DNA of 64,000 nt from Candidatus Krumholzibacteriia bacterium (GTDB lineage Bacteria > Krumholzibacteriota > Krumholzibacteriia > JAJRXK01), in assembly GCA_035268685.1 (NCBI GenBank), contig DATFKK010000172.1, positions 1 to 64,000 of the forward strand, given 5' to 3'. The stretch's first letter is position 1. Each line of letters opens with the position of its first letter. Shown in pieces: positions 3,846 to 9,956 of the stretch. A model generated the notes under the pieces. The model did no database searches and was not told where the DNA came from. It worked only from the letters and a program-made list of their open reading frames with translations. Position numbers and translations under genes: made by a program.

Positions 3846-4232
3846 TCACCGCGGAGCGTCGATCACCATCATCGTCGCCGACGCGCGGGCCACGACGCGA
3901 TCGTCGTCCTCCGCACGCACCCATCCCTCGACGTAGGCCGTGCGGCGTGTGCGATGCACGACCGTGCCACGAGCGACCAGCCGTTCGCCGCGGGCCTTGC
4001 CGAGGAAGTTGACCTTCATCTCGAGCGTGGCGGCCGACAGGCTCTCGCCGCCGTCGGCCATGAAGAAGGAACGGGCCATGGCCGTGTCCAGCAGACTGCA
4101 CAGCACGCCGCCGTGCACGATGCCGCCGATGTTCAGGTGCCGCGGCTGCACGTCGAGCTCGACCACGTAGTCGTCGCCGTCGAAGCCCCGTGGGTCGAGG
4201 CCGAGATCGACGATGTGGTGGACTTCGCTCAC
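3846..4232 (-). CDS. PaaI-type hotdog-fold acyl-CoA thioesterase
   Basis: 128 residues, the normal size for a PaaI/YdiI hotdog protein. The active-site region [20 protein letters not shown] (about residues 38-57) has the HGG loop and following helix of the family. The strands after it ([30 protein letters not shown]) are typical. I chose GTG 4232 because it overlaps the thiolase stop codon (GTGA, 4229-4232), which implies translational coupling as the last gene of the operon. The role is probably hydrolysis of an acyl-CoA made by the upstream thiolase, or rescue of CoA from dead-end esters. The substrate cannot be read from sequence. Confidence -1.
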
Positions 4233-5446
4233 CGCGCCTCCACCGTCTCGATCACCATCGAAATACCCTGGCCCACGCCGATGCACATGGTGCACAGCGC
4301 GCGCCGTCCCCCACCGCGGCGGAGCTGGTGCAGGGCGGTGGTGACCAGCCGCGCTCCGCTCATGCCCAGCGGATGGCCCAGCGCGATGGCCCCGCCGAGG
4401 GGATTGATGCGCGGATCGTCGTCGGCCAGGCCGAGTTCCCGCGTGCAGGTCAGCGCCTGTGCGGCGAAGGCCTCGTTGAACTCGAGCACGTCCATGGCGT
4501 CGAGGTCGAGTTGCAGACGCGCGAGCAGCTTGCGCGTGGCGGGCACCGGGCCCAGGCCCATGATCCGCGGCGGGACACCGGCCGCCGCCGCCCCGACCAC
4601 CCGGGCCCGCGGGGTCAGTCCGTACTTCTCGACCGCCTCGGCCGACGCCACCACCAGCGCCGCGGCACCGTCGTTCACGCCCGAGGCGTTGCCCGCGGTC
4701 ACGGTGCCCGGATCACGGAAGAGTGGACGCAACGACGCGAGCTTCTCGAGCGAGCTCTGCCGCGGATGCTCGTCGCGATCGACGACCAGAGGATCGGCCT
4801 TGCGCCGGGGCACCGTGACCGGCGTGATCTCTTCGGCCAGACTGCCGTCGGCCTGGGCCGCGGCTGCCTTCTCCTGACTCCACAGGGCAAAGCGGTCCTG
4901 GTCCTCGCGCGCGACCCCGAACTCCGCGGCCAGGTTCTCGGCGGTGTCCGGCATCGACGCGGTGCCGTACTGCTCGTCCAGACGCGGGTTGACGAAGCGC
5001 CAGCCGATGGTGGTGTCGTACATCTGCGCGTCGCGGGCGAAGGCCGCCGTCGACTTGCCCACCACGAAGGGCGCGCGCGACATGCTCTCGACCCCGCCGG
5101 CCAGGACGAGGTCGGCCTCGCCGGTGGCGATCGTGCGCGCGGCCTGCGCCACGGCCTCCATGCCCGACCCGCACAGACGGTTCACGGTGCAGCCGGACAC
5201 CGAGTCGGGCAGACCCGCCAGCAGCAGCGACATGCGCGCGACGTTGCGGTTGTCCTCGCCGGCCTGGTTCGCGCAGCCCAGCAGGACGTCGTCGACGCCC
5301 GCCGGATCGATCCCGGGATTGCGCTCGAGCAGCACCCGCAGCGGGATCGCCGCCAGGTCGTCGGGACGCACCGACGCCAACGCGCCCCCGTACCGGCCCA
5401 CGGGGGTACGGATCGCATCGCAGAGGTAGGCTGGCCTCGTCGTCAT
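4229..5446 (-). CDS. pcaF: Acetyl-CoA acyltransferase, 3-oxoadipyl-CoA thiolase type
   Basis: 405 residues, full length. It closely follows PcaF/PaaJ signatures: [18 protein letters not shown] at the N-terminus, [16 protein letters not shown], nucleophile Cys in [10 protein letters not shown] (near residue 90), [47 protein letters not shown] with the catalytic His, and [10 protein letters not shown] with the second Cys. In the known pathway it cleaves 3-oxoadipyl-CoA with CoA to succinyl-CoA and acetyl-CoA. Here no ring-cleavage genes (pcaGH, pcaBCD, paaABC) are present. The operon instead couples it to a CoA-transferase, an aminotransferase and an aminomutase, so the beta-keto acyl-CoA substrate may be different. 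It starts 27 bases after the aminotransferase stop. Confidence -1.
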
Positions 5447-5473
5447 CGTCGTCCTCCCGTACGGCCGAAGGCG

Positions 5474-7602: not shown

Positions 7603-8309
7603 GGGTAGCGCACCCCCTCCCGCACCAGTGCAGACTCCTGCAAGGGCTCGGCCACCCGGACGACGCGGTCGACGAAGATCCCGGGCGTGACCACGCACTC
7701 CGGATCGATCTCGCCGGCCTCGACGATCTGTTCGGTCTGGACGATCGTCGTCCCGGCCGCGGTGCACATGATCGGCGCGAAGTTCCGCGCCGTTTTGTTG
7801 TACAGCAGATTGCCGTAGCGGTCGGCCACGCGTGCCTTGACCAGGGCGAAGTCGGCCCGCAGACCCCGCTCCATGAGGTAGGTCCGGCCGTCGAACTCGC
7901 GGGTCTCCTTGCCCTCCTCGAGCACCGTCCCCACGCCGGTGGCCGTGTAGAAGGCGGGGATCCCCGCGCCGCCGGCACGGATGCGCTCGGCGAGCGTGCC
8001 CTGGGGCACCAGCTCGAGTTCGACCTTGCCGGCCCGGTACTGCTCGGGGAAGACCTTCGAGTTCGCCGTGCGCGGATACGAGCAGATCATCTTCGCCACG
8101 CGCTCGTTGTCGATCAGCGCGGCCAGACCGACGTGGCCACTGCCCGTGTTGTTGTTGACCACGGTGAGGCCGCGCGCTCCCTGGTCGATCAGGGCGTGGA
8201 TCAGCTCGATCGGACTTCCGGCCTCGCCGAATCCACCGATCATCACCGTCGCCCCGTCCGGAATGTCGGCCACGGCCTCGGCCACCGAGTTCCATCGCTT
8301 GTCGATCAT
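7599..8309 (-). CDS. pcaI: 3-oxoacid (3-oxoadipate type) CoA-transferase, subunit A
   Basis: 236 residues, full length. The glycine-rich CoA-binding loop GATVMIGGFGEAGSP (residues about 19-33), TVVNNNTGSG, ELELVPQGTLAERIRAGGAGIPAFYT, GKETREFDGR and NKTARNFAPIM are standard for PcaI/ScoA. It forms the heteromer with the overlapping subunit B. The combination with a PcaF-type thiolase completes 3-oxo acid activation and thiolysis. The absence of aromatic ring-cleavage genes leaves open whether 3-oxoadipate is the real substrate. Confidence -1.
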   Translation of the reverse strand: MIDKRWNSVAEAVADIPDGATVMIGGFGEAGSPIELIHALIDQGARGLTVVNNNTGSGHVGLAALIDNERVAKMICSYPRTANSKVFPEQYRAGKVELELVPQGTLAERIRAGGAGIPAFYTATGVGTVLEEGKETREFDGRTYLMERGLRADFALVKARVADRYGNLLYNKTARNFAPIMCTAAGTTIVQTEQIVEAGEIDPECVVTPGIFVDRVVRVAEPLQESALVREGVRYP

Positions 8310-8363
8310 CTCGCCTTTCCGATCCTCGGGACGGCCGGGGCCGCTCCCCCGGCCGGAGTGCCG

Positions 8364-9956
8364 TCAGACGTCGAGCGATTCGCGCGCCGACGCCAGCGCG
8401 CGCGCCAGCTCCGCCTCGATCTCGCGCAGTTCCTCACGGAAGAAGAACTCGTCGCCCTCGAAGGGCGGCAGCAGGTCCACCGTATTCTGCTCCTCGTCGT
8501 ACTGCGCGAGGAAGACCCTGTCCATCCATTCCATGTTCCGGCCCTCGGTGAACTTCAGCGCGAAGGCCTGCTTGCCGTTCACCTCGCAGGTGCCGAGGAT
8601 CGAGATCTTGCCCGCCGACGAGGTCATCGAGATGTAGCGCGTGGGTCGGTAGATCGACGCCAGGTTGCGATGGATCCGGCTGGCGACCTCGTTCACCTCG
8701 GCCAGCGGCGTGGTGAAGTAGTGGTGCTCACCGGTCGGACGCGCGCAGTACATCGAGTGGAAGCCGATGTGCATGGTCCCGAGCAGGTTGGCCAGGTCGA
8801 TCCAGTTCTGTGCGCTGCGCTCGACGTCGGTGCGGCCGTCCGGGCCTTCGAACAGGCTCACGTGCCGCATGATCGGGCTCTGGCTGCGCAGCACCACGCC
8901 GTGGCGCTGCAGGCGGCGGATCGCCGCGATGGTGCTGGGATTGAGGATCTCGCGCGGCGTGCTGAAGTGCGCCATCCAGGCCAGCTGGATGCCGGCGGCG
9001 TGCAGCTCGTCGAACAGGGCGAGCATCTCGTCGTACTCCGGCGAGAGCACACGCTCGGGGCTGTAGCTGAGCAGGCGCGTGCCCAGGCGGATCGCACGCA
9101 CGTGCAGGAAGTCGGGGTCACCCTCGAGCAGCGGCCGGGCGTACTCGCGCAGACGGCTCGCCGGCATGTAGCCCGCGTCGCCGCCGGTGATCAACATGTC
9201 GGTGATCTCGGGGTGCGTGCGCACGTAGCGGTGGACCTGCTCGATCTCCTTCTGCAGGAACATGTCCTCGTCGCCGCGCACCTGCGCGTGGCGGAAGCAA
9301 TAGGTGCAGAAGGCGAAGCAGTTCTGCGTCGAGGTGTCGAAGATCAGCGCGCACTGCGGGTACTTGTGCTGGCTGCCCTCGAGGAATTCCATCTCGCCTT
9401 CGGCGTTCGTGAACAGCGGCTTGTTGAGCTGCTGGTTGCCGTCGTGCGGGTTGGTCGACTCCATGTAGTCGTCGAGGACCTGCTGGCGTTCCTCTTCGGT
9501 CGCCGCCGCCCGGGAGCGCTCGACCAGCTCCCGGCGCAGCATCCCCGGTTGCGGGAAGGTGAGCTGGAACAGCGAATCCGTGGCGAAGTGGTCCCAGTCG
9601 ATGCTGTTGAGCACGTGGCGCGTGACCATGAAGCGGTAGACGCGCACGAAGAGTTCGCGCTCCTCGACGTGACCGATGTGGATGCCGGCGTCCTCGAGGA
9701 CGGTCACCACCTCGCGCAGGCCCTCGAGGCCGCGGTACTGTTCCTTGTCGCGGAACAGGAAGGGACGCGTCTCGAGCAGGCCCGACGACTCCGGGTACTG
9801 GGCGTGCACCCGGCTCAGCAGACCCTGCGGCAGCAGGTCCTCGCGCTCGATGATCGCCCGGACCTCGTCGGAGTACCGGTAGCGATCGAGCATCCGGTCG
9901 ATGTCCTCACGGGTGACGGCGGCCGTGGTCGGGGCCATGGTCTCGGGTGCACTCAC
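8364..9956 (-). CDS. Radical SAM amino acid 2,3-aminomutase (KamA family), lysine-binding Asp residues not conserved
   Basis: 530 residues from GTG 9956, which has GGGGGA seven bases upstream; ATG 9938 has no such site. The radical SAM cluster motif CFAFCTYC (CxxxCxxC, near residues 211-218) is intact. It is followed by DMLITGGDA as in lysine 2,3-aminomutase. The PLP-Lys is probably in SSAGKISIL (near 447). In the Clostridium lysine enzyme two Asp residues hold the substrate epsilon-amine. The corresponding segments here read YCARPTG and YISMTSSAGK, without those Asp residues, so lysine is an unlikely substrate. The enzyme should move an amino group from C2 to C3 of an alpha-amino acid. It is first in the operon with the CoA-transferase, aminotransferase, thiolase and thioesterase. 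Confidence -1.
   Translation of the reverse strand: MSAPETMAPTTAAVTREDIDRMLDRYRYSDEVRAIIEREDLLPQGLLSRVHAQYPESSGLLETRPFLFRDKEQYRGLEGLREVVTVLEDAGIHIGHVEERELFVRVYRFMVTRHVLNSIDWDHFATDSLFQLTFPQPGMLRRELVERSRAAATEEERQQVLDDYMESTNPHDGNQQLNKPLFTNAEGEMEFLEGSQHKYPQCALIFDTSTQNCFAFCTYCFRHAQVRGDEDMFLQKEIEQVHRYVRTHPEITDMLITGGDAGYMPASRLREYARPLLEGDPDFLHVRAIRLGTRLLSYSPERVLSPEYDEMLALFDELHAAGIQLAWMAHFSTPREILNPSTIAAIRRLQRHGVVLRSQSPIMRHVSLFEGPDGRTDVERSAQNWIDLANLLGTMHIGFHSMYCARPTGEHHYFTTPLAEVNEVASRIHRNLASIYRPTRYISMTSSAGKISILGTCEVNGKQAFALKFTEGRNMEWMDRVFLAQYDEEQNTVDLLPPFEGDEFFFREELREIEAELARALASARESLDV

Follow-up and report, generated by a model that had tools for sequence, protein, structure and literature searches.

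A conserved operon of Krumholzibacteriota and other phyla that may lead 2-aminoadipate into the end of the beta-ketoadipate pathway

Background

What is degraded by an operon in which a radical S-adenosylmethionine (SAM) aminomutase stands beside genes of the beta-ketoadipate type? The question is raised by six minus-strand open reading frames (ORFs; 9956 down to 3846) in a stretch of 64,000 nucleotides (the window; contig DATFKK010000172.1, positions 1 to 64,000) from a Candidatus Krumholzibacteriia bacterium, the genome of which comprises 4.59 Mb in 202 contigs, is 99% complete and has its closest relatives among Krumholzibacteriota. The genes encode a KamA-like aminomutase, the two subunits of a coenzyme A (CoA)-transferase, a class III aminotransferase, a thiolase and a thioesterase. 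Our reading, to which we assign a probability of roughly 0.7, is that the operon supplies the later half of a route that breaks lysine down via 2-aminoadipate and enters the end of the beta-ketoadipate pathway.

In the proposed pathway, the end carbon of lysine would be oxidised to give L-2-aminoadipate by first halves that would vary between hosts (lysine 6-dehydrogenase, lysine 6-transaminase, saccharopine enzymes or pipecolate oxidase, and then piperideine-6-carboxylate (P6C) dehydrogenase). The radical SAM, pyridoxal phosphate (PLP)-dependent aminomutase would move the amino group from C2 to C3, converting 2-aminoadipate to 3-aminoadipate, from which the class III aminotransferase would form 3-oxoadipate. 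The PcaIJ-like CoA-transferase would turn 3-oxoadipate and succinyl-CoA into 3-oxoadipyl-CoA, and the PcaF-like thiolase would cleave this to acetyl-CoA and succinyl-CoA, whereby the CoA donor would be regenerated. The predicted net conversion is of 2-aminoadipate, 2-oxoglutarate and CoA to acetyl-CoA, succinate and glutamate, with no loss of CO2 and no use of oxygen. We place 3-oxoadipate as the intermediate, made from 2-aminoadipate, because the neighbouring genes and the thiolase family point there; the substrates throughout, and whether transamination precedes CoA transfer, we infer from sequence.

Results and discussion

Conservation of the gene block

All six ORFs were found as the initial annotation had described them, including two 4-base overlaps (CoA-transferase A/B and thiolase/thioesterase), and profile searches bore out its family assignments. 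The gene identities, the conserved block, its linkage to other genes, the presence of a first half in the genome and the residue changes given below are computed results. Related loci, 80 in number, were taken from one contig scan using exact peptide patterns (57-73% identity), a sample biased toward close relatives. The genes for the aminomutase, CoA-transferase A, CoA-transferase B, aminotransferase and thiolase followed each other in the same order and on the same strand in 46 of these loci. The gaps, measured from one BLAST match end to the next, had medians of 15-72 bases, and the recurrence is not attributable to chance. The first four genes of the block were present in 9 further loci (two at a contig end), 10 loci were truncated by contig ends, 11 (ten of them Colwelliaceae) had the aminomutase without other block genes downstream, and the last 4 lacked one or more block members. 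According to their titles the loci cover ten phyla (Krumholzibacteriota, Eiseniibacteriota, Sumerlaeota, Myxococcota, Thermodesulfobacteriota, Pseudomonadota, Bacteroidota, Balneolota, Rhodothermota and Ignavibacteriota), and the full block occurs in about eight.

The initial annotation had asked whether all five partners recur beside the aminomutase; four do, but the hotdog-fold (PaaI-like) thioesterase (3846..4232, minus strand; 63.8 bits against TIGR00369, cut-off 36.6) was found in just 6 of the 80 loci. It is accordingly an optional member and not a core step, contrary to the earlier proposal that release of CoA completes the pathway, and possibly serves to clear stalled acyl-CoA.

Some loci were arranged otherwise. 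In Colwelliaceae loci L053, L055, L056, L061 and L067-L071 the aminomutase lay apart from the other operon genes, with a PcaF-type thiolase about 7-8 kb away on the opposite strand in L061 and L067. The thiolase directly followed CoA-transferase B in L114 and L116, and in L116 was itself followed by a different class III aminotransferase (7402-8730; 32% identical).

The aminomutase and its predicted substrate

The aminomutase gene (8364..9956, minus strand; GTG start) encodes 530 amino acids. The protein scored 72.5 bits against the KamA family model TIGR00238 (cut-off 199), which places it outside the curated family, 67.6 bits against the lysine 2,3-aminomutase model (cut-off 525) and 60.6 bits against the glutamate 2,3-aminomutase model TIGR04368 (cut-off 650). 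As these scores are far under those of every named aminomutase family, the substrate is not readable from similarity. An AlphaFold2 model (mean pLDDT 84) had lysine 2,3-aminomutase (2A5H) as its top fold match in the PDB (E 3e-14), and residues C213, C217 and C220 (CxxxCxxC), R406 and K450 were invariant across 29 diverse members. K450 aligned with the PLP lysine of KamA references, as did the cluster cysteines with theirs; judged from sequence and from the fold match of the model, the protein is clearly homologous to the KamA family. The references came from carrier genomes and scored above the lysine 2,3-aminomutase cut-off; they were used because the HMMER alignment with 2A5H ends short of residue 293.

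The residues expected to recognise the substrate differ. Asp293 and Asp330 of lysine 2,3-aminomutase, which we take to be the aspartates that bind lysine by its side-chain amine, were both present in the lysine references (L189 and L190) and are replaced in the window protein by Arg406, which is invariant, and Ser443, a position occupied by Ser or Thr among aligned members. An arginine in place of Asp293 would suit a substrate bearing a terminal carboxylate, and we propose the protein as a candidate 2-aminoadipate 2,3-aminomutase.

Lysine itself as the substrate was rejected on the low score and the loss of both aspartates. These same observations make it very unlikely that the operon runs a lysine 2,3-aminomutase route resembling the Bacillus subtilis kamA-yod genes, in which beta-lysine would be converted to 6-amino-3-oxohexanoate and its CoA ester, and thence, after the thioesterase, to 4-aminobutyrate and acetyl-CoA. 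Such a route would agree with the KamA-like fold and would give the thioesterase a clear role, and B. subtilis has a beta-lysine-forming KamA and, in yodT, a gene for a class III aminotransferase (PMC6522883). However, most loci have no thioesterase, and the linkage to P6C dehydrogenase described below would be left without a role.

A second aminomutase-like gene of the window genome (contig C104, 20304-21515, designated L043; 36-40% identical) had no recognisable operon around it. It belongs to a sister subfamily (L042, L043 and L044; 36-43% identical) that likewise lacks the lysine-binding aspartates and a recognised operon. A search of plasmids returned just relatives of 30-37% identity (Streptomyces, Rhodococcus and Burkholderia), mostly annotated as lysine 2,3-aminomutase.

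Thiolase and the question of an aromatic source

The thiolase (4229..5446, minus strand; motifs C92, NEAF324, GHPLG357 and C388) scored 683.5 bits against the 3-oxoadipyl-CoA thiolase model TIGR02430 (pcaF; cut-off 597) and is the single gene above that cut-off in the window genome. Thiolases of distant operon carriers were above it as well (678-695 bits), and the second-best solved match was the beta-ketoadipyl-CoA thiolase 6PCA (562 bits). The thiolase is of the pca type and the CoA-transferase of the PcaIJ/Sco type, as they would be in an ordinary aromatic pcaIJF operon with an incidental radical SAM gene and aminotransferase. That explanation is hardly credible: in about eight phyla both the aminomutase and the aminotransferase have been kept together with the pca-type genes, and the window genome, 99% complete, contained neither an intradiol dioxygenase (PF00775) nor PaaA/C (PF05138), extradiol families not having been searched. 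As far as these two families go, an aromatic source therefore fails to account for the pcaIJF genes. The initial annotation, which named no substrate, set 3-oxoadipate aside; the neighbouring genes and the thiolase family instead make this compound the likely intermediate.

CoA-transferase, aminotransferase and the order of steps

Subunit A of the proposed 3-oxoadipate:succinyl-CoA CoA-transferase (PcaI/ScoA family; 7599..8309, minus strand) scored 356.7 bits against TIGR02429 (pcaI/scoA; cut-off 128.5), and subunit B (PcaJ/ScoB family; 6922..7602, minus strand; ENG motif at residue 56) 311 bits against TIGR02428 (pcaJ/scoB; cut-off 243.6), models that each span Pca and Sco types alike. The nearest solved structures to subunit A were succinyl-CoA:3-ketoacid CoA-transferases.

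The class III aminotransferase (5474..6850, minus strand; PLP lysine K276), proposed to act on 3-aminoadipate, a beta-amino acid, is not HemL, since it reached 344 bits against the HemL model TIGR00713 (cut-off 527). HemL identity was also rejected on the ground that a separate, true HemL is encoded on contig C35 of the window genome (596.5 bits), so that the initial annotation's concern that the operon enzyme might be the genome's only HemL did not materialise. The top solved relative was 6K8H (412 bits; HemL, 242 bits), a transaminase for beta- and gamma-amino acids, in which R36 has been proposed to hold the substrate carboxylate (PMC10589169). The corresponding arginine (R29 in the window protein) follows the PGGxx motif, and PGGxxR was found in every one of the 58 family members with a located PGG motif; the HemL of the window genome reads PGGVNS, without the arginine.

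The chain of aminomutase, transaminase, CoA-transferase and thiolase put forward in the initial annotation stands, although the order of its steps is not fixed. In a different order the CoA-transferase would make 3-aminoadipyl-CoA, the aminotransferase would then give 3-oxoadipyl-CoA for cleavage by the thiolase, and no free beta-keto acid would arise. This order matches that of the genes in the 46 loci (aminomutase, CoA-transferase, aminotransferase, thiolase), and the HemL-like transaminase Kat, known from lysine fermentation, accepts CoA esters exclusively (PMC3149608). We nevertheless consider it unlikely, if plausible. The closest solved relative of the aminotransferase, 6K8H, uses free beta-amino acids (PMC10589169). 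The CoA-transferase belongs to the PcaIJ/Sco family, the known members of which take beta-keto acids. As judged from their families, the two enzymes favour transamination before CoA transfer.

Linkage to genes of lysine and 2-aminoadipate metabolism

P6C dehydrogenase makes 2-aminoadipate, with which the first half of lysine degradation ends. Leaving aside the operon itself and two LysR families, two genes recurring nearby in unrelated lineages pointed to a substrate: those for this enzyme and for a protein of the saccharopine-dehydrogenase fold. P6C dehydrogenase adjoined the block in 11 of the 80 loci (804-817 bits in the three linked cases tested, cut-off 730), and the saccharopine-dehydrogenase-fold gene, which resembles lysine 6-dehydrogenase (LysDH), lay beside it in 5. 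Among solved structures the top relative of this LysDH-like family was 3ABI, an L-lysine 6-dehydrogenase (PMC10413350). In a sample of 50 carrier genomes, P6C dehydrogenase was above the cut-off in 21, in 8 of which it lay at most 8 kb from the block; under random placement this would have a probability of about 1e-12, the chance per genome being taken as 0.7% by our own estimate. On the aminomutase tree the linkage arose in at least 7 independent events. A LysDH-like gene (at least 57% identical to that of L088) was present in 9 sampled carrier genomes, all of which had P6C dehydrogenase.

Single loci added further neighbours. In L092, P6C dehydrogenase adjoined an AmaA-like pipecolate oxidase (459 bits, below the cut-off of 600); a polar amino-acid ABC transporter was encoded near the block in L093 and L098; and in L079 (Motiliproteus; 3921-4721) a short HglS-family gene (2-oxoadipate dioxygenase/decarboxylase) preceded the thioesterase and aminomutase. 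In L097 (5427-7879) a DMT-type transporter, a beta-keto acid cleavage enzyme and a hotdog thioesterase stood ahead of the aminomutase, the cleavage enzyme hinting at a possible alternative to thiolysis. Like P6C dehydrogenase and the LysDH-like gene, the oxidase, the ABC transporter, the HglS-family gene and the cleavage enzyme point to lysine, 2-aminoadipate or beta-keto acids. Most other neighbours were confined to one genus or family (Colwelliaceae, Shewanella) or were housekeeping genes.

In the window, the operon end is met convergently by a LysR-type regulator (2867..3835, plus strand; LysR domains), the family of which adjoined the aminomutase or block in 27 loci. Another LysR family was divergent from the block in 17 loci, mainly in gammaproteobacteria of the Shewanella, Colwelliaceae, Photobacterium, Pseudoalteromonas and Aliivibrio type, and has relatives among the LysR genes adjoining P6C dehydrogenase in L093, L098, L125 and Motiliproteus. 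This kinship is a hint that those gammaproteobacterial blocks may serve the same metabolism as the blocks linked to P6C dehydrogenase.

On the other side of the operon, window positions 10313-17212 resemble a membrane-lipid cluster, with genes for a CDP-alcohol phosphatidyltransferase, a PlsC-type acyltransferase and a diacylglycerol-kinase/YegS protein, as well as a class I/II PLP enzyme, an acetoacetate-decarboxylase-fold protein and a zinc alcohol dehydrogenase.

Genes for a first half were present in the window genome: P6C dehydrogenase on contig C180 (791 bits), lysine 6-transaminase (LAT) on contig C21 (613 bits, cut-off 521), and saccharopine-type (LKR-like and SDH-like) genes on contig C111 (46% and 37% identical to proteins of the related genome G039), the latter two being named from their Pfam domains (AlaDh_PNT_N and Sacchrp_dh) and neighbourhood. 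All five Krumholzibacteriota carriers (G000, G039, G064, G006 and G041) had P6C dehydrogenase and an LKR-like gene, and the LKR, SDH and P6C dehydrogenase genes were adjacent in that order in three of them.

Several observations weigh against 2-aminoadipate as the substrate, or against the order of steps proposed for it. P6C dehydrogenase occurred in 43 of 80 genomes of the window's phylum and is common enough there for its mere presence to be weak evidence; the window's own copy is unlinked, and the first-half genes lie on other contigs. The enzyme was below threshold in 29 of the 50 sampled carrier genomes and was found in no sampled Shewanella, Colwelliaceae, Photobacterium, Pseudoalteromonas or Aliivibrio, carriers in which LysDH-like, LKR-like and LAT genes, at the thresholds applied, were missing as well. 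Either such gammaproteobacteria would obtain 2-aminoadipate otherwise, or the substrate differs there. Arginine at the Asp293 position was found also in other KamA-like subfamilies of unassigned substrate, and Kat, working as it does on CoA esters, would allow the other order of steps.

The substrate could accordingly be a different one, such as glutamate (via 3-oxoglutaryl-CoA to malonyl-CoA and acetyl-CoA) or leucine, or could depend on the lineage, the link to lysine genes being incidental. Many carriers, chiefly Shewanella and Colwelliaceae, are without every 2-aminoadipate source tested, and the aminomutase is far below all named families. Even so, we regard another substrate as improbable: linkage to P6C dehydrogenase and to LysDH-like genes arose repeatedly and independently, and the last enzyme falls in the 3-oxoadipyl-CoA thiolase family in distant carriers too (for example Shewanella L072, 695 bits); glutamate would need no such detour.

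Comparison with known systems

With lysine 2,3-aminomutase (KamA/AblA; 2A5H) the window protein shares the fold, the three-cysteine motif and the PLP lysine, but it differs in having Arg406 and Ser443 for Asp293 and Asp330 and a long N-terminal extension. Glutamate 2,3-aminomutase performs the same type of reaction on a substrate with an acidic side chain; its residues at the two positions, presumably Lys and Asn, differ from the Arg and Ser/Thr of the window family. The lower beta-ketoadipate pathway (PcaIJ and PcaF) has the same last two steps and products as predicted here, the classical pathway being fed by an aromatic ring and the proposed one by an amino acid. Breakdown of 2-aminoadipate is otherwise known via 2-oxoadipate, either through glutaryl-CoA or by HglS and 2-hydroxyglutarate. 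Those routes have the same starting compound, but begin with transamination at C2 and lose C1 as CO2, whereas in the proposed route the amino group would be shifted to C3 and all carbons kept.

In the kamA-yod cluster of B. subtilis, which like the window block combines a KamA-family aminomutase with a class III aminotransferase, YodR and YodS are the CoA-transferase subunits. The cluster also has an acetyltransferase and a deacetylase, unlike the window block, and is not known to have a thiolase. Its KamA, unlike the window aminomutase, is a true lysine 2,3-aminomutase, and kamA and yodT are under one sporulation sigma factor, with a function that is not settled (PMC6522883). Lysine fermentation (kam/kdd/kce) resembles the proposed route as an aminomutase-led breakdown of lysine, and its Kat variant has a HemL-like transaminase, a CoA-transferase and a thiolase (PMC3149608). 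It differs in that it starts at beta-lysine, needs a 5,6-aminomutase and a cleavage enzyme and ends in acetoacetyl-CoA, whereas here the amino group on the end carbon of lysine would be removed first.

In the openly licensed literature we found no paper on this route, on 3-aminoadipate metabolism or on a 2-aminoadipate aminomutase, which is not proof of absence. The initial annotation, in stating that it knew of no described pathway joining these steps, overlooked kamA and yodT of B. subtilis (PMC6522883). The operon probably represents an undescribed, oxygen-independent and carbon-keeping route of lysine degradation in about ten phyla, in which a new 2-aminoadipate 2,3-aminomutase would connect the compound that the saccharopine, pipecolate, LysDH and LAT routes end in with the two closing steps of the beta-ketoadipate pathway. 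If this is correct, 2-aminoadipate would have a fate that keeps all six carbons without oxygen, and a new radical SAM activity is predicted with a named substrate and residues. Likely annotations as lysine 2,3-aminomutase, HemL and aromatic pca genes would be corrected in numerous genomes, among them those of Shewanella, Desulfuromonadales and Bacteroidales, and the occurrence of pcaIJF-type genes where aromatic ring cleavage is lacking would be accounted for. As precedents, kamA/yodT of B. subtilis and lysine fermentation come closest; what is new in this aminomutase-led degradation of an amino acid is the predicted substrate and the predicted junction.

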